A DNA stretch of 18,282 nucleotides from positions 1-18,282 of the forward strand of contig JAGHCW010000234.1 of the NCBI GenBank assembly GCA_021160245.1, read 5' to 3'. Under the pieces are notes generated by a model that did not search any database, had not been told where the DNA came from, and worked only from the letters and a program-made list of their open reading frames with translations. Below are positions 12,263 to 18,213 of this stretch, piece after piece. Each line of letters starts with the position of its first letter. Position 1 is the stretch's first letter. A program made the position numbers and the translations under genes. The DNA comes from a bacterium. GTDB lineage: Bacteria; B130-G9.

Positions 12263-12292
12263 GAAAACAAATACCGCCCCCGAGCCGGGGCG
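12263..12292 (-). terminator. Likely intrinsic terminator of the arsC operon
   Basis: On the minus strand, CGCCCC and GGGGCG form a perfect six-base-pair all-GC stem with loop GGCTCG, followed by GTATTTGTTTTC. It lies about 63 bp after the arsC stop. The T-run is interrupted, so termination may be partial. Confidence 0.45.
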
Positions 12293-12354: not shown

Positions 12355-12816
12355 TCAAGTTTGCGGGGAAACACTTGACCCCTGACTTTGGAGATTGGCA
12401 TTTAGAAACTCGTTGATCTGGGATAATAACTCGTCTCTAACTTTCCTGAAGACCTTCAGTTTTTGAGCATCATCTCCTTGCGCAGTCGCCGGGTCCTCGA
12501 GCCCCCAGGTTAGTCTGAGCTTTGCCGCGCCGGGGAAGTATGGGCATTGTTGATTTTTGTCTTTTGCACAGACCGTTATGACGTAGTCGAACTTCTGGCC
12601 GATGAATTCGTCGAGCGACTTGCTCCGCTGCTCGGATATGTCGAACCCTATCTCGGCCATGACCTTGATGGCCAGCGGATGGACAAACGATGCGGTCGCG
12701 CCGGCGCTATGAACATCGAAGGTGCTCCCGGGTAGACTCTTGAGAAGGCCCTCGGCCATCTGCGAGCGGCAGGAGTTGCTGCCACAGAGAAACAGGACGC
12801 TATCCTTTCGGGGCAT
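12355..12816 (-). CDS. arsC: Thioredoxin-type arsenate reductase (LMW phosphatase fold)
   Basis: I choose the ATG giving MPRKDSVLFL because family members start a few residues before the catalytic loop; a TTG 16 codons upstream is also open. The 153-aa protein has the CX5R loop CGSNSCRSQMAEG (Cys11, Arg17), the redox pair in the flexible segment (Cys83 in ITVCAKD and Cys91 in QQCPYF) and the Asp108 general acid in WGLEDPA. These features match the S. aureus pI258-type enzyme, which reduces As(V) to As(III) using three cysteines and thioredoxin, rather than a plain tyrosine phosphatase. It overlaps the upstream Fe-S protein gene by 17 nt and is the last gene of the long minus-strand operon. 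No ArsR or ArsB/Acr3 is nearby; the permease two genes upstream is the only visible candidate for metal export. Confidence 0.93.
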   Translation of the reverse strand: MPRKDSVLFLCGSNSCRSQMAEGLLKSLPGSTFDVHSAGATASFVHPLAIKVMAEIGFDISEQRSKSLDEFIGQKFDYVITVCAKDKNQQCPYFPGAAKLRLTWGLEDPATAQGDDAQKLKVFRKVRDELLSQINEFLNANLQSQGSSVSPQT

Positions 12817-13528
12817 GTTTGGTGCTACAGGTTTCTGTCTGGCCTGGGAATCTGAGTATCCCAAGTGGGCACGCTGCCTGGCATTCGGGGCACTTGAGGC
12901 AGTCCTTGGATTGCAGCCTCCCCTTTGCCATGTCGGACGGAATCTTGAGGTTCATCGGGCAGGTCCTCTCGCACGCCCCACAGTCGGTGCAGCCATCATC
13001 GAGCTGCAGCTTCTGCTTGTGTCCGCCCACTGCAGCCTGCAAAGTCCCTATAGGGCAGAACGTGCACCATGTTCTTGGGTGAAAGAAAAGGGCCACAATA
13101 ACGCCTATGCCTGTCGTGATGACGCATATACGAAAGAAGACGGTTCCCCAATGTCGGTAGTCTCCGGGGTCAAGGCTTATCTGATAGACCATAAAACCCA
13201 TCAAGATGGCGAACACAGCCCATCTAAAGGCCGGGTTCCTAAACCAGCTGGGGATATTCCGATTGGGGCTAACATGCCTCATTACTCTGTCAAAGAAGGC
13301 GCCTCTGGGGCATAGCCAGCCGCAGACATATCTGCCTCGCACGAAGCCACCCACGACGCCGATCATCATCACAACCGGTACAGCATAGCCAAGCAGTGGA
13401 TAGCGCCAGCCAAGCCCAATAACGATCACGACCATTATCCACGTGCTGGATTGGATGATTCGCCTGATTCTTGAAAGCTCTGCGGCGTTGCTTCTGACTG
13501 CTGCACTTGTTGCGGTAGTCTTGCTCAA
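12800..13528 (-). CDS. NapH/CcoG-like membrane polyferredoxin
   Basis: The product is 242 aa if it starts at the TTG 10 bp after the permease stop, or 264 aa from a GTG at 13594 that overlaps the permease; I prefer the former, with modest certainty. It has hydrophobic segments at about 30-40, 46-62, 102-116 and 131-149. Two CxxC(P) motifs sit beside membrane segments (VCGWLCP, 68-74; WCTFCP, 154-159), as in NapH/MauN-type proteins. Two 4Fe-4S sites follow: Cys180/183/186/190 and Cys210/213/216/220. Such proteins pass electrons between the quinone pool and redox partners or act in metal-site assembly. Between a metal permease and arsC, it might supply electrons to reduction chemistry or help handle copper, as CcoG does; both are inferences. 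Translation should be coupled to arsC. Confidence 0.88.
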   Translation of the reverse strand: MSKTTATSAAVRSNAAELSRIRRIIQSSTWIMVVIVIGLGWRYPLLGYAVPVVMMIGVVGGFVRGRYVCGWLCPRGAFFDRVMRHVSPNRNIPSWFRNPAFRWAVFAILMGFMVYQISLDPGDYRHWGTVFFRICVITTGIGVIVALFFHPRTWCTFCPIGTLQAAVGGHKQKLQLDDGCTDCGACERTCPMNLKIPSDMAKGRLQSKDCLKCPECQAACPLGILRFPGQTETCSTKHAPKG

Positions 13529-13538
13529 TATGTTTATC

Positions 13539-14813
13539 TCAACTTTCTGCTTTTGATGGTTTGGCGTCCAGATTACAGCCGTAACCGAGTTCACTGACTG
13601 TCTTGCAGAGCGACTCGGCGTCGAGGTCCTTGCCGTCTAAGAGCGCTTTTCCAGCCTTGAGATCAACGTTGACCATTTCAACGCCCGGGCTGCCGGTCAA
13701 AGCGCGAGTAACGGCCTCCGCGCAATGGCTGCACGTCATTCCCGTGATATTGAGCGATAGCATTCTATCCTCCTTCTCCTTAGGAATTGCCGCATGGTGA
13801 GCGTGTTTGTGGGCATAATTCGACCAACCCAGAATGGCAAGCAGGGCTATCGCGCTCGCCACCTTGATGTATGGCGGTAGCATCCAGGGCATGTATGGCT
13901 CCGCGGTTCCGGCCGTCGTGGTGTAGATAAGATCGAGAAGCGAGCCAAAGAGCAGAGCACATCCGCCTGTTGTCAAAAGGTAAATAATTGCCACCTTCTT
14001 GCCCATGACTTTCCAGATCGTGGCGATAGTCGCGATGTTTGTGGCTGGTCCGGTCATCAGAAAGACGAAAGCCGCGCCAGGCGAAACACCAATCGCGATT
14101 AGAGCGCCAGCAAGGGGCACAGATGCGGTCGCGCAGACATAGATCGGTATCCCGATCGCCATGAGTAAGAGCTTCGCTAGAAAGCCGTGTCCGAGCGAAT
14201 TGGCAAAAAAATCTTGAGGCACAAGCGTGGAGATTAGCGCTGCTGCAAGAAGGCCAAAGAAGAGCGGCTTTGCGATGTCGCCTGCAAGCGTCACGAAGCC
14301 GTATTTGAACACCTGTGCGAGCCTATGACCTTTGGGGTGGACCATGCAGGCGCCGGTCGCGCACGTGCAATCTGGCCCCTTCGGCGCCTCTTCACCATCC
14401 TCCTCACCAACCGCGACGAGCGACCCGCCCAAGAGCCCTGTCAATAGTGCCGCAAATGGCCTGAATATGGCGAAGACGGGGCCAAGAAGGCTGAGTGTTA
14501 CAAATATCGAGTCTATTCCCGTCTGCGGCGTCGAAAGCAGAAAGGCTGTTGTCGCGCCCTTGCTCGCCCCTTGCTTTCTAAGCGACGCGGAAACAGGAAT
14601 GACGCCGCAGGAGCACAATGGCAAGGGAACCCCAAACAGCGAGGCTTTGACGACTGGCAGGAATCCCTTGCCTCCCAGATGACGACGGACAACATCCGGT
14701 GAGATGTAAACTGATAACACGCCTGCGACCAGGAAGCCGAATAGCAAGTATGGGGACATCGCGCCAAGCACGTCCCAGAACTCCGCAAGTATGCTCATGA
14801 CAACGTCATACAT
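13539..14813 (-). CDS. SO_0444-type metal permease with C-terminal heavy-metal-associated (HMA) domain
   Basis: I start at the ATG inside ATGTATGA, eight bases overlapping the upstream stop and preceded by GGGGAGGG; an ATG ten codons earlier has no ribosome-binding site. The 424-aa protein is a two-bundle permease of the ArsP/DUF318 superfamily with repeated conserved cores: GVPLPLCSCGVIPVSASL (61-78) with STPQTG (94-99), and ATASVPLAGALI (228-239) with TGPATNIATI (254-263). A cytosolic-type loop at 137-163 is rich in Cys and His (DCTCATGACMVHPKGH). Residues 335-340 are HKHAHH. Residues 351-413 form an HMA domain with MTCSHC (Cys361, Cys364). The closest family name I know is the SO_0444 Cu/Zn efflux transporter, while ArsP relatives export organoarsenicals. 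With arsC downstream, the substrate could be either. Confidence 0.88.
   Translation of the reverse strand: MYDVVMSILAEFWDVLGAMSPYLLFGFLVAGVLSVYISPDVVRRHLGGKGFLPVVKASLFGVPLPLCSCGVIPVSASLRKQGASKGATTAFLLSTPQTGIDSIFVTLSLLGPVFAIFRPFAALLTGLLGGSLVAVGEEDGEEAPKGPDCTCATGACMVHPKGHRLAQVFKYGFVTLAGDIAKPLFFGLLAAALISTLVPQDFFANSLGHGFLAKLLLMAIGIPIYVCATASVPLAGALIAIGVSPGAAFVFLMTGPATNIATIATIWKVMGKKVAIIYLLTTGGCALLFGSLLDLIYTTTAGTAEPYMPWMLPPYIKVASAIALLAILGWSNYAHKHAHHAAIPKEKEDRMLSLNITGMTCSHCAEAVTRALTGSPGVEMVNVDLKAGKALLDGKDLDAESLCKTVSELGYGCNLDAKPSKAES
13761..13782 (-). promoter_or_regulatory. Internal ribosome-binding site and start ahead of the HMA domain
   Basis: Within the permease gene, AAGGAGAAGGAGG stands five bases before the in-frame ATG of Met351, the first residue of the HMA domain. 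Translation from it would give a 74-aa CopZ-like metal chaperone (13539-13763). The codons read KEKEDRM, so the purine-rich run could also be chance within a charged linker. Confidence 0.4.
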
Positions 14814-15630
14814 CGGCGGAAGCCCTCCCCTGTCCGAATTCATTCAGAAAGCACTCGAGGTCCGCGTCCCGCCGAATCCCAAGCCTCGTCAAGGCAAAGT
14901 CATATCGCACAGGATCAAAAGGGGCAAAGCGTTTGAACGCATTCGTGATCTCTAAAGCACACTGCATGTCCGCATTCCTCCTGTTCGTGAAGCCCAATGC
15001 AAGTCCTATTCTATGTATATGAGTATCCAACGGCACAATCAGCTTCGATTTCGGCACATCACCCCAGCCCCCCGGATCCACCTCGTCTTTTCTAACCATC
15101 CACCGCAAAAAGAGATTAAGCCGCTTGCAGGCGCTACCCAGCTTCGGTGAGGGCACGAGACTGTTGCGCCGGCCTCCGGCTTTCTGACCAGACATAAGCG
15201 CCTCAGCAAACGTCGCAAGCGCTGGAAGCACGGTCTCATGCTCATCCATCAGCCCGGCCACAAAGCAATGATACAAAGAGCCATAATGTTCTATAAGCCG
15301 CTTAGCGCCGATGAGCATCTCCGCAACATCGTCTCCGGTCGTGAACCTATGCTTGAAATGCGAGAACAAGGACCGCAAATCATCCTCTGATGATTGCAGC
15401 AGGAATTCACGAGGCGCCGGTCCGAATCGCTCGAGAACATAAGAGACGCTTTTGAGTATCTGCGCAACTCTCCCATACGCAAGCGCGCTCGCGATCAGGC
15501 CCACTATCTCACGATCGCAAGGGTCCTCGTAACCATAGAGGAACTCAACCGGGTCAGGATGAACAAATTCGCGCCTGTTGTATCTCTCGTATAGCCGCTC
15601 GAGCGTCTGTCCATCTACGCCGCGCCTCAT
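14806..15630 (-). CDS. TIGR02757/DUF2400 family protein
   Basis: This 274-aa soluble protein carries the family features I know: [11 protein letters not shown] (24-34), [16 protein letters not shown] (39-54), [17 protein letters not shown] (173-189), and [18 protein letters not shown] (197-214) with [16 protein letters not shown] and [11 protein letters not shown] (242-252). No biochemical role is established that I know of. The [10 protein letters not shown] segment with its following helices resembles the VDTHxxRV segment of HhH-GPD DNA glycosylases such as endonuclease III, where that Asp is catalytic; Asp202 would be the equivalent. No Fe-S cluster cysteines follow. The start overlaps the rubredoxin stop (ATGA) and the end overlaps the permease start by eight bases, so it is firmly inside the operon. 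A repair role for oxidised or nitrosated DNA would fit its neighbours, but that is inference. Confidence 0.88.
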
Positions 15631-15788
15631 TCATCCAGTTTGAAGGCTTCCTTGCCGACACCGCAGACAGGGCAGGTCCAGTTCGGCGGAATGTCCTCAA
15701 AGGCTGTTCCTGGCTTGATTCTATTGTCGGGGTCGCCCTTCTCAGGGTCATAAAGATAGCCACAGACCGTGCAGACATATCTCTTCAT
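15627..15788 (-). CDS. Rubredoxin
   Basis: This 53-aa protein is a complete rubredoxin: [17 protein letters not shown] with Cys6 and Cys9, then [17 protein letters not shown] with Cys39 and Cys42, giving the iron-tetracysteine site, plus the conserved Tyr, Trp37 and Gly residues. It carries single electrons in the cytoplasm. AAAAAGGAGCG provides a strong ribosome-binding site eight bases before the ATG. The start overlaps the flavin reductase stop as ATGA, and its own stop overlaps the DUF2400 start as ATGA. Together with the upstream flavin reductase it reproduces the two halves of high-molecular-weight rubredoxin (Hrb), which in Moorella delivers electrons from NADH to the flavodiiron protein FprA. 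It could also serve the rubrerythrin-like protein encoded upstream. Confidence 0.97.
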
Positions 15789-16348
15789 CGGTTCGCTCCT
15801 TTTTCTGGTTCTATTTTTTCCTGTTTTGATTCACTCTCGATATAACTCGGCGCATTCTTCGGCGTCTTGCCTTTCAGGTGTTTGTGATAATAATCGTAGG
15901 TAAGTGCGCTCCCCGTCGCAAGGACCTCGCCGGACAAGAGATCGCCGACGAATATCGTATGCGTGCCCACGCTCATAGCATCAACGACCTTCGCCTCAAG
16001 CACCGAAAGCACGTGCTCCGTTACGAGCGGGGCACCGGTTGTCCCAGCTTTGTATCCGACGTTTTCAAACTTGTTCGCGTCGCGGCCTGATCGAAATCCA
16101 AACGTGCCGATAAGCGTCATCGGGGCCGTCTCATCCAGCACGGAAACGCCAAAGACGCCGCTCTCTGAGATAAAGTCGTGCGTCAGGTTCTCTTTGTTTA
16201 TACATACGCTTATTCTTGGTGGACTGGCCGTTACTTGAAACACAGTGTTGACTATTTGCCCATTTAGCCTGTCACCAGAGTACGAACTAGCTATGTAGAG
16301 ACCGTAGCTTATGCTGAATAACGACCGCGGATCGAACTCGCTCTTCAT
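15785..16348 (-). CDS. FMN-dependent flavin reductase domain protein (Hrb N-terminal half)
   Basis: The ATG giving [10 protein letters not shown] is chosen because AAGGAGAGG lies eight bases upstream and the open frame before it belongs to fprA. The 187-aa product is a flavin-reductase-like split-barrel: [16 protein letters not shown] (10-25), [20 protein letters not shown] (29-48), [11 protein letters not shown] (66-76), [15 protein letters not shown] (80-94). It ends with [20 protein letters not shown] (151-170), the linker typical of Hrb proteins before their rubredoxin domain, then a charged tail. The rubredoxin is instead encoded by the next, ATGA-overlapping gene. Expected role: NAD(P)H-linked reduction of FMN and electron transfer to rubredoxin and then FprA. 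It begins one base after the fprA stop codon, so the genes are tightly coupled. Confidence 0.92.
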
Positions 16349-16349
16349 C

Positions 16350-17552
16350 TTAGAGCCTCTCCTTAAGCCGTTCAGCCACCGCCTTCCCGAGAGCGCGGCA
16401 TTTCTCGAGCGCATCCGCATTCGGCACATAACTAGCCTTGATGCCATCGCTTATGAGCCTCACATTCATGGACTTCAGAAGCTCGTTCAGATGGCCGACC
16501 GCCTCGCCGCTCCATCCGAATGAGCCAAACGCAGCGCCGATGAGGTTCTTTGGCTTTAGGCCCTTCAGGTACGTCATGGTTTCCGCAATCGACGGAAAGA
16601 TGCCGTTGTTGATGGTCGGTGAACCCAGGATAAGGGCTCCGGCGTGCATCACAGCTGTCGCGACGTCGCTGCGATGGGTCGATCCAAGCGGCATGGTGCT
16701 GACGCTAGCGCCGCCCTCCGCCAGGCCGTCGCAGATTGCCCTCGCCATGATGTCCGTGCTATTCCACATCGTGTCATAGACGATAACTGCGCGCATTGAG
16801 GGCTGCTGCTCCGCCCAATTGGAATACCAATTGAGAATATCGGAGAAGCTCTTCCGCCAGATAGGGCCGTGGGTAGGCGCCACAATCTTGAAACTCAAGC
16901 CGAGCGTCGGGAGACTCTTCAGAAGCTTCGTAATAAGCGGCGAGAATGGCAGAAGGATGTTTGCATAATACTTGGCCGCCTCCTCTGCGATAACGTCGTA
17001 TGGCAGTTCATCGTCGAACCGCTCGGTCGAGGCGAGGTGCATCCCGAAGGCGTCTTGTGAGAAGAGAATCTCGTCCTCCGCAAGATACGTAACCATGCTC
17101 TCTGGCCAGTGCAGCATCGGCGTGTGGATGAACGATAGATTCATGTTGCCGAGGCTAAGACTCTCGCCATTCTTGACGGGCGTTACGTCAATATCGAGAT
17201 CGAAGAGATTCGACAGAACTTTTACGCCCATCACCGAAGCAAAAACCTTCGTGGGCTTCGCAACTTGAATGGTACGAGGCAGCGCCCCGGTGTGGTCAAA
17301 CTCGGCGTGATTCGAGATAATATAGTCGATCTTCTCCGGCTCGATGACCGAGGCGATGCGAGAAAGCATCTCGTCCGCGAACGGCCCCTTCACAGTATCG
17401 ATCAATGTGATCTTGTCAGCCATCACAAGATACGCGTTATACGTGGTTCCGCGCCTCGTCTGGTATCCATGAAAATTGCGCATGCCCCAGTCGATGGCGC
17501 CCACCCAATAGACGTTATCGGTAACTTTGGTCGCCTTGAACGGTCCTTTCAA
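16350..17552 (-). CDS. fprA: A-type flavodiiron protein (O2/NO reductase)
   Basis: This 400-aa cytosolic enzyme has a metallo-beta-lactamase-like diiron domain (about 1-245) and a flavodoxin-like FMN domain (about 253-398). The diiron ligands are all present: His82, Glu84, Asp86 and His87 in NHAEFDHTGALP, His148 in MLHWPESM, Asp167 in FSQDAFG and His228 in APTHGP. The FMN phosphate loop is VYDTMWNSTDIMA (258-270). Such proteins reduce O2 to water and/or NO to N2O in anaerobes; preference cannot be read from sequence. The start is TTG, supported by GAAGGAGAG just upstream. It is the first gene of the seven-gene minus-strand operon, and its likely electron donors are the next two gene products. 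The upstream gap holds a REP doublet and no promoter I can defend. Confidence 0.96.
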   Translation of the reverse strand: MKGPFKATKVTDNVYWVGAIDWGMRNFHGYQTRRGTTYNAYLVMADKITLIDTVKGPFADEMLSRIASVIEPEKIDYIISNHAEFDHTGALPRTIQVAKPTKVFASVMGVKVLSNLFDLDIDVTPVKNGESLSLGNMNLSFIHTPMLHWPESMVTYLAEDEILFSQDAFGMHLASTERFDDELPYDVIAEEAAKYYANILLPFSPLITKLLKSLPTLGLSFKIVAPTHGPIWRKSFSDILNWYSNWAEQQPSMRAVIVYDTMWNSTDIMARAICDGLAEGGASVSTMPLGSTHRSDVATAVMHAGALILGSPTINNGIFPSIAETMTYLKGLKPKNLIGAAFGSFGWSGEAVGHLNELLKSMNVRLISDGIKASYVPNADALEKCRALGKAVAERLKERL

Positions 17553-17697: not shown

Positions 17698-18213
17698 TTA
17701 GAACGGCGCAAAGCCCGCCTTCTCCCAATAGAACTCCTTTAGCGAGTCATACTGCTTCAATAGCGCCCTATAATGACCTGCTTCCCACGCCTCGAGCTCC
17801 TTGAAGAATCCCTTCACAAAATCGTCCGAGCTCTTCTCGGAATGTTCTCTGTAGAATCTCATGGCGAGAAGCTCGAGCTTCACCCCTATGGACAGCGCCG
17901 TCATCTCATAATGGGCATCCGAAAGCCGTTCGAGCAGCTGTTCGGAGAATATGGGGTGCGCCCCGGAGAAGTCCGCCTTGGGGCCCAGCTTCAACTTCTT
18001 ATCGAACTCGCCTCGCTCCAACAACGAGAGATATTGTTTCTTGAGATACTTCAGATGTATCTCCTCCTCCGCAGCCAGCGTCTCAAAAACCTGCTTGCCC
18101 TTTGGGTCCGCCGTGCTGTTGGCTGCCATCAGGTAAAAGTACTTGCCGTCGTTCTCCGTCCTGATCGCCTCAGCAATCCCCCTCGCGACCTTGTCCCTTG
18201 CCTCATTATTCAT
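17698..18213 (-). CDS. Rubrerythrin-like ferritin-fold diiron protein
   Basis: I start at the ATG nine bases after AAAAAGGAG, giving MNNEARDKV; earlier in-frame starts overlap that ribosome-binding site. The 171-aa protein is all helical, with two repeated carboxylate/His helix pairs: Glu20 (AIRTEND) and EEIH (50-53), then Glu114 (VKLELLAMRF) and EAGH (144-147). These fit the ferritin-like diiron site of rubrerythrin-type proteins, which reduce hydrogen peroxide in anaerobes. There is no C-terminal rubredoxin domain; the chain ends in YWEKAGFAPF. The separately encoded rubredoxin in the operon downstream could be its electron donor, which is an inference. Sulerythrin-like or COG1633-type ferritin-like proteins are the alternatives. 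It lies 145 bp upstream of fprA on the same strand and may or may not share a transcript with it. Confidence 0.88.
   Translation of the reverse strand: MNNEARDKVARGIAEAIRTENDGKYFYLMAANSTADPKGKQVFETLAAEEEIHLKYLKKQYLSLLERGEFDKKLKLGPKADFSGAHPIFSEQLLERLSDAHYEMTALSIGVKLELLAMRFYREHSEKSSDDFVKGFFKELEAWEAGHYRALLKQYDSLKEFYWEKAGFAPF

Follow-up and report, generated by a model that had tools for sequence, protein, structure and literature searches.

The window analysed here is an entire contig of 18,282 bp. It carries seven genes on the minus strand (17552-12355), flanked by one further gene upstream and a terminator-like site downstream:

17698..18213, minus strand: rubrerythrin/ferritin-like diiron protein of about 171 aa (Pfam PF02915), in an ORF open to 18231.
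16350..17552, minus strand: flavodiiron protein (FDP) FprA with a TTG start (PF19583 and PF00258), a predicted O2 and/or NO reductase.
15785..16348, minus strand: flavin reductase domain protein (Flr; PF01613), half of a split Hrb.
15627..15788, minus strand: rubredoxin (Rd) of 53 aa (PF00301; NF045768 above cut-off), the putative electron carrier to FDP.
14806..15630, minus strand: DUF2400/TIGR02757 protein (PF09674, E 1.2e-75), a predicted HhH-GPD DNA glycosylase/lyase.
13539..14813, minus strand: SO_0444-family predicted metal efflux permease with a C-terminal HMA (CxxC) domain (NF033936, 342.8 bits; PF00403).
12800..13528, minus strand: NapH-like membrane protein with Fer4_5 cysteine motifs and two [4Fe-4S] motifs (PF12801, PF13187).
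12355..12816, minus strand: ArsC-like protein of the LMW-PTP fold with arsenate-reductase cysteines (PF01451).
12275..12292, minus strand: terminator-like hairpin and T-rich tail after arsC (consensus scan, weak evidence).

The rubrerythrin-like ferritin gene at 17698-18213, directly upstream of the seven, was missed by the first-pass annotation. Read from the sequence, the fprA stop (16352-16350) is separated from the flr ATG (16348) by 1 nt; the flr/rd and rd/DUF2400 junctions are both ATGA overlaps of 4 nt; the DUF2400 and permease genes overlap by 8 nt at ATGTATGA; 10 nt lie between the permease stop and the TTG of the NapH-like gene (13528); and the NapH-like and arsC genes overlap by 17 nt. 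These gaps and overlaps, together with the profile matches for the families, bear out the earlier description of the seven minus-strand genes, and going by the overlaps the genes probably form an operon. A consensus scan found no minus-strand terminator-like sites within the seven genes; the site at 12292-12275, a kind of match that is weak evidence, has six G-C pairs and lies about 60 nt past arsC.

The flavodiiron protein has ODP and flavodoxin domains and the ligands of FprA-type enzymes (H-x-E-x-D-H...H...D...H motifs). The flavin reductase and rubredoxin, two overlapping genes in the window, are a single fused ORF in one relative (G003), as they are in Moorella Hrb. Judged by sequence, the reading of the first three genes as a chain of the Hrb-FprA type is sound; in the Moorella thermoacetica system (Silaghi-Dumitrescu et al. 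2003, as cited in PMC7482061), an FDP is likewise accompanied by flavin reductase and rubredoxin. What sets the window chain apart from the Moorella system is its place in a larger island, together with metal efflux and DUF2400 genes.

The upstream continuation of this island is probably to be found on a second contig of this genome. Contig C148 ends in the gene order Fur/PerR-rubrerythrin (Rbr)-peroxiredoxin (Prx)-superoxide reductase (SOR)-ferritin (Ftn), with the ferritin cut by the contig end. We joined C148 to the window through the gene order of relatives from the same family, because there is no end overlap between the two contigs. In G001, a single contig reads Rbr-Prx-SOR-Ftn-RbrL-FerL-FDP-Flr-Rd-DUF2400-SO_0444/HMA; in G002, two contigs read Prx-SOR-Ftn-RbrL-FerL-FDP-Flr and Rd-DUF2400-SO_0444/HMA-NapH-ArsC; and G003 has Ftn-RbrL-FDP-Hrb-DUF2400-SO_0444/HMA-ArsC (families confirmed by Pfam). 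The RbrL gene, whose window counterpart is the rubrerythrin-like gene, precedes the FDP gene in G003, and in G001 and G002 it comes before another ferritin-like gene. Every genome of the family (four in all, G002 being read over its two contigs) has the flavodiiron chain linked to the metal permease; in other phyla the link exists within a larger island, as the earlier proposal of such a link would have it. Judged from these three relatives, a single island of some 12 genes would have the end of C148 as its upstream part and the seven genes as its downstream half; the genes of the proposed seven-gene unit stand, but not its extent. A Fur-family regulator, rubrerythrin and superoxide reductase, the content of a PerR-type anaerobic oxidative-stress operon, are found together on C148 and at further loci.

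The two genes at the far end of the cluster behave differently from the rest. The NapH-like gene is present in two of the four family genomes (the window genome, G000, and G002) and absent in G001 and G003, and arsC lies beside the permease in three of the four, being absent there in G001. The NapH-like and ArsC genes are therefore optional, lineage-specific additions, and of the trio that was expected to accompany the FDP chain in relatives, the permease does so throughout the family, arsC mostly, and the NapH-like gene in half. In the first-pass annotation, one pool of low-potential electrons was proposed to feed both the FDP chain and the metal/arsenic trio, and the NapH-like Fe-S membrane protein was cast as the electron route to reduction of metalloid or copper. 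The Fer4_5 and [4Fe-4S] motifs of this protein, and its position between the permease and ArsC in G000 and G002, would suit such a role; however, G001 and G003 lack it and yet keep FDP, Hrb, DUF2400 and the permease. Its only close relative (73% identity) is in G002, and outside the family it matches only distant Fer4_5/ferredoxin-type proteins over the full length at about 30% identity or less. It is NapH-like only, scoring 48.9 bits against the NapH model TIGR02163, for which the subfamily cut-off is 213. The usual partner of ArsC proteins in this class is thioredoxin, which also speaks against the link. Because both genes are optional, the Fe-S electron link is unsupported, and we regard it as very improbable.

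The permease passes NF033936, the model for the SO_0444 Cu/Zn efflux family (cut-off, 300 bits); it carries an ArsP_1 domain, and its HMA domain resembles Cu chaperones. Against solved structures, compared by sequence, only the HMA domain finds matches among the rows listed and the membrane part none. A selenoprotein SAO operon was considered and dropped, the SaoE model scoring 162.8 of 325 bits. Mutant studies showed that SO_0444 is needed under Zn or Cu stress (PMC3219624), and the Nitratiruptor homologue NIS_RS04910 is induced by Cd and Cu (PMC10092412). The window permease likewise belongs to this family by its score; unlike Shewanella SO_0444, which has a ZntR-like regulator, it has a C-terminal HMA fusion and oxidative-stress neighbours. 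The mutant results for SO_0444, together with the HMA domain, lead us to infer that it exports a thiol-seeking metal (Cu+, Zn2+ or similar).

Alternatively, the permease-ArsC end could be mainly an arsenic module: arsenate would be reduced by ArsC, arsenite or an organoarsenical would leave through the permease as a member of the ArsP_1 superfamily, and co-exposure at redox boundaries would account for the module's place in the island. The ArsP_1 domain and the presence of ArsC next to the trio in three of the four family genomes are consistent with this, as is a Zixibacteria locus (L139) in which ArsC adjoins the permease in the order rbr-arsC-permease-FDP-Rd. ArsC has the conserved Cys-X4-Cys-Arg loop and a distal cysteine pair with a spacing of 8 (7 in staphylococcal arsenate reductase); its score against TIGR02691, the thioredoxin-type arsenate reductase model, is 130.2 bits, below the equivalog cut-off of 174.3. 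However, most islands are without ArsC, which occurs within 8 kb in only 3 of 55 loci with an HMA-bearing permease, and the model that the permease passes is that of the Cu/Zn SO_0444 family, with an HMA domain that resembles Cu chaperones. We consider an arsenic module unlikely and favour export of a thiol-seeking metal.

The most informative member of the cluster, DUF2400, was passed over by the first-pass annotation. No described function for DUF2400 was found in the open-access literature, where the family is named once, in a gene list, and no mention of TIGR02757 was found there. The AF2 model (pLDDT 92.9, pTM 0.91) is predicted to have the endonuclease III/MutY/OGG fold: the best 28 Foldseek matches are all DNA glycosylases, with weak E-values (best, 0.013), and VIA structure comparison gives Z scores of 13.3 for EndoIII (198 residues), 12.5 for MutY and 11.7 for MjOgg. 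PDB sequences give weak matches only (EndoIII at E 0.04), and hhalign against EndoIII gives P 95.7 (E 9.5e-9), whereas ten unrelated control families and 30 column shuffles all gave P <1%. K169 and D202 do not vary across 34 sequences, and they align to EndoIII GRKTA/VDTH and with the catalytic pair of the HhH-GPD superfamily. The protein has the predicted fold of this superfamily, the GPD-motif Asp used in catalysis and the Lys of bifunctional members. EndoIII, MutY, OGG and AGOG have a like fold and catalytic Lys and Asp, and the Lys-Asp spacing of 33 in DUF2400 compares with 32 in AGOG (K140/D172), an HhH-GPD DNA glycosylase (PMC9638937). DUF2400 differs from these enzymes in being a separate Pfam family (PF09674) without the [4Fe-4S] cluster loop; the AGOG family PF09171 was not listed for the window protein in the Pfam search, and hhalign against two bacterial AGOGs, a very shallow profile, gave P 12.3. 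Many HhH-GPD members are not 8-oxoG enzymes.

DUF2400 is accordingly a predicted HhH-GPD-superfamily glycosylase/lyase, for which the gene context makes an oxidised base in DNA the likeliest target of excision. It could instead have no part in DNA repair, acting on nucleosides as an N-glycosylase like DUF2419, or serving only for binding, with an HhH-GPD fold that has no catalytic activity. Entries for DUF2419, a queuosine-salvage enzyme, share the fold (VIA Z of about 11.2), and the Fe-S cluster cysteines are missing at the EndoIII position, as might be expected of either; however, the Z scores for EndoIII and MutY are higher, hhalign against two DUF2419 sequences gave P 0.2 on a shallow profile, and the invariant K169/D202 and the oxidative-stress context argue for an active enzyme of DNA repair. 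We consider these alternatives rather unlikely.

Outside the family, DUF2400 paired with SO_0444/HMA is found again in Coatesbacteria, TA06, Omnitrophota, Krumholzibacteriota, Planctomycetota, UBP1 and others. Its usual companions are rubrerythrin, superoxide reductase, ferritin and flavodiiron protein, and a Fur-family gene often stands at the head. Among 80 named SO_0444 loci, a non-independent set selected for resemblance to the window permease, at least two of Rbr, SOR, ferritins and FDP lie within 8 kb of the permease in 21, and a Fur-family gene immediately precedes DUF2400 in 7. DUF2400, rubrerythrin, superoxide reductase and ferritin accompany the permease most consistently, and 26 of 32 island loci group within a single 32-row subclade of the permease (support 91, with weakly supported internal branches). 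Outside the family, genomes of an untargeted set that contain both DUF2400 and a full-scoring SO_0444 never have the two as neighbours; therefore, the linkage is limited to subfamilies. Likewise, with the queries used, neither FDP nor Rd nor SOR-type genes turned up beside the SO_0444 loci of unrelated genomes (L066-L082); therefore, the link is no general feature of SO_0444. In 19 neighbourhoods outside the family, DUF2400 adjoins FDP or rubredoxin in three (G006, G014 and G045) and SO_0444 in none.

The genes could be mere neighbours brought together by chance or drift, with no functional joining, as the different gene orders between lineages and the occurrence of SO_0444 as a whole mostly outside such islands might suggest. 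However, DUF2400 lies directly upstream of the permease in 19 of the 68 loci with enough flank, in many phyla and at about 45-55% permease identity, whereas we estimate an expectation of about 0.02 for a gene present once among about 3000; clustering by chance or drift is extremely unlikely. Chance overlap was also considered as an explanation and dropped.

The reading we prefer, with a probability of roughly 0.7, is that the island is an anaerobic oxidative-stress operon of the PerR type, extended by metal efflux and oxidised-DNA repair; gene content and the predicted fold are established here, and the repair, substrates, regulation and joint function are proposals. It would comprise Fur/PerR, rubrerythrin, peroxiredoxin, superoxide reductase, ferritin, the ferritin-like protein, FDP, flavin reductase, rubredoxin, DUF2400 and SO_0444-HMA, to which this lineage appears to have added the NapH-like protein and ArsC. 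Upon exposure to peroxide or O2, a repressor of the Fur/PerR type would release the island genes; NAD(P)H would supply electrons to the split Hrb, whose flavin reductase and rubredoxin would hand them on to the flavodiiron protein for the reduction of O2 (or NO). By the known functions of their families, superoxide reductase, rubrerythrin and peroxiredoxin would clear superoxide and peroxide, and the ferritins would take up iron freed from damaged Fe-S proteins. The permease would export metal caught by its CxxC domain and so limit mis-metallation and Fenton-type damage, DUF2400 would remove an oxidised DNA base, and the NapH-like protein and ArsC may extend the metal/metalloid end.

A known analogue is the PerR-controlled rbr-perR-sor-CD0828 operon of Clostridioides difficile (PMC11980386). 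This operon of a strict anaerobe likewise has a Fur/PerR-family regulator, rubrerythrin and superoxide reductase; however, it consists of rbr, perR, sor and CD0828 only, without DUF2400, the SO_0444-HMA permease, ferritin or FDP-Hrb. No description of the combined island was found in the open-access literature. We hold the odds to be even that DUF2400 is a new bacterial family of oxidised-base DNA glycosylases/AP lyases within a cross-phylum PerR-type regulon that joins it to a dedicated HMA-fused metal exporter and to a complete chain for detoxification of O2, superoxide and peroxide. If this is true, detoxification, metal control and DNA repair would be a single co-regulated unit in anaerobes. 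The islands in any case show anaerobes of several candidate phyla to bundle predicted metal efflux with defence against O2 and reactive oxygen species. DUF2400, which is also found in Bacteroides and Bifidobacterium, would pass from a family of unknown function to a testable enzyme with named catalytic residues. As to why anaerobes die in air, through damage involving metals, DNA or Fe-S proteins, one gene set would hold all three answers together.

Sequence reading and family models bore out the assignment of seven minus-strand genes (17552-12355) to the flavodiiron protein (FDP), flavin reductase, rubredoxin, DUF2400, SO_0444-type permease with an HMA domain, NapH-like and ArsC families. The overlaps and short spacings claimed in the first-pass annotation were confirmed from the sequence; in 5'-to-3' gene order, the junctions are a 1-nt gap, overlaps of 4, 4, and 8 nt, a 10-nt gap, and a 17-nt overlap. 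A terminator scan found no minus-strand terminator-like hairpins within the seven genes. The window is the whole of contig C225 (18,282 bp), which belongs to a draft genome (G000) totaling 3.43 Mb, and two further features were located on it:

12292-12275, minus strand, terminator-like hairpin 3' of arsC
17698-18213, rubrerythrin-like ferritin gene, missing from the first-pass gene set

Beyond the hairpin lies a short minus-strand open reading frame (12245-12110; MKVEIKNIPDKHIPENQIDRKGHRGMNTFAGSPEVMSSKGVGL), possibly a decayed gene fragment. A second ArsP_1 permease of G000 (C223:2690-3865; L001) is not of the SO_0444 type by score.

The linkage between the FDP chain and the metal genes is real; however, it is not a unit of its own but part of a larger island. 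Another G000 contig, C148, carries genes for a Fur-family regulator, rubrerythrin, peroxiredoxin, superoxide reductase (SOR), and ferritin up to its very end, the group beginning with the following feature:

C148 6638-7051, Fur-family regulator

The ferritin gene is truncated by the contig end, and the minus strand of C225 opens with a possible ferritin tail followed by a ferritin-like gene; the two contigs, whose ends do not overlap, probably adjoin in G000. The relative G001 holds the entire order on one contig (rubrerythrin-peroxiredoxin-SOR-ferritin-ferritin-like-ferritin-like-FDP-flavin reductase-rubredoxin-DUF2400-SO_0444/HMA). In G003 the run is ferritin-ferritin-like-FDP-(flavin reductase-rubredoxin fusion)-DUF2400-SO_0444/HMA-ArsC, and in G002 the island is split over two contigs, with the break inside flavin reductase and NapH-like and ArsC genes at the end. 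In G001 (L063:10640-10660) and at the matching site in G003 (L065), the DUF2400 frame continues in-frame after the rubredoxin stop, TAG, and no ATG, GTG, or TTG lies between this stop and the conserved DUF2400 N terminus; these sequences suggest either initiation at a rare ATC codon or read-through of the UAG to give a rubredoxin-DUF2400 fusion. In the window, by contrast, the two genes are in different frames with an ATGA overlap.

We found no functional description of DUF2400 in the open-access literature, only a single incidental mention. The AlphaFold2 model (34 homologues as input; pLDDT 92.9, pTM 0.91) predicts its fold with high confidence. All 28 leading Foldseek matches were DNA glycosylases, albeit with weak E-values, and VIA alignment gave Z scores of 13.3 over 198 residues for EndoIII, 12.5 for MutY, 11.7 for Methanocaldococcus (M.) jannaschii Ogg, and 11.2 for the queuosine-salvage enzyme DUF2419. 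Profile-profile comparison with EndoIII/MutY-like proteins of related genomes gave a probability of 95.7 (E = 9.5e-9), and 10 unrelated families and 30 column-shuffled profiles all scored below 1%. K169 and D202, invariant in 34 sequences, align respectively with the Lys in the GRKTA motif of EndoIII and the Asp in its VDTH; their spacing of 33 is close to the 32 of the AGOG catalytic pair, K140/D172 (PMC9638937). The four-cysteine cluster loop is absent from the C terminus. A glycosylase fold with a catalytic pair is thus well supported by prediction; DUF2400 may act as a glycosylase on an oxidized-base substrate in DNA.

The window permease passes the SO_0444 model, and its HMA domain, which contains CxxC, is closest to copper chaperones and copper-ATPase domains. 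Shewanella requires SO_0444 when stressed by Zn or Cu (PMC3219624), and Cd and Cu induce a homologue in Nitratiruptor (PMC10092412); the permease here may handle such metals. ArsC, which lies beside the permease end in three of the four family genomes, scores below the equivalog cutoff in the window but keeps the arsenate-reductase cysteines. It also adjoins the permease in Zixibacteria (L139), and an arsenic role for this end of the island therefore remains a live rival. The proposal that the FDP chain and the metal/arsenic genes share low-potential electrons was not borne out: the NapH-like gene, the postulated link, occurs in only two of the four genomes. Its product fails the NapH model, and a metal-reductase role for it is only a guess.

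Outside the family, searching a genome collection with the permease alignment yielded 80 named loci, a sample biased towards the window permease whose rows are not independent. Where flanks sufficed, DUF2400 lay directly upstream of 16 of 47 HMA-bearing permeases and 3 of 21 HMA-lacking ones; 21 of the 80 loci had at least two of rubrerythrin, SOR, ferritins, and FDP among same-strand genes no more than 8 kb away. By record title, DUF2400-linked loci come from Coatesbacteria, TA06, Omnitrophota, Krumholzibacteriota, Latescibacterota, UBP1, Auribacter, Planctomycetota/Phycisphaerae, Lentisphaerales, and a Chlamydiae MAG. When 98 genomes collected without targeting were examined, DUF2400 and SO_0444 were adjacent in the window's family only. 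The fullest island, in a Coatesbacteria relative (L102), reads DUF2400-SO_0444/HMA-rubrerythrin-peroxiredoxin-SOR-ferritin-CMD-ferritin-like-Rrf2-cupin-Hcp-FDP-rubrerythrin-like-flavin reductase-rubredoxin; a carboxymuconolactone-decarboxylase-like protein, Rrf2 regulator, cupin, and hybrid cluster protein fall within 12949-16372. One permease subclade holds 26 of 32 island loci, many inner forks being weak, and in the DUF2400 tree a 25-row set with starred support contains 21 SO_0444-adjacent and 2 FDP/rubredoxin-adjacent rows. DUF2400 also lies directly 3' of FDP-flavin reductase-rubredoxin, FDP, or rubredoxin with no permease (L200 in G006, L194 in G014, and L196 in G045), so its tie to FDP/rubredoxin exists independently of SO_0444. 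For HMA-lacking SO_0444 permeases, a second neighborhood type occurs in Planctomycetota (L108, L127, L133, and L162), with DUF2400 approximately 4 to 5 kb upstream; L108 and L127 also have ArsC. Several such loci have Rrf2, cupin, 4Fe-4S, and hybrid cluster protein genes close to the permease.

Gene content, order, conservation, and the FDP ligand motifs were observed directly; the functions of FDP and its flavin reductase-rubredoxin partner, SOR, rubrerythrin, and ferritin are those known for their families. A Fur-family gene lies immediately 5' of DUF2400 at L084, L085, L096, L099, L101, L104, and L106. The island is likely to be a single transcript under PerR-type control. As a whole, it would represent a PerR-type anaerobic oxidative-stress operon, of which rbr-perR-sor of Clostridioides (C.) difficile is a simpler known form (PMC11980386), with the addition here of metal efflux and probable, predicted DNA repair.
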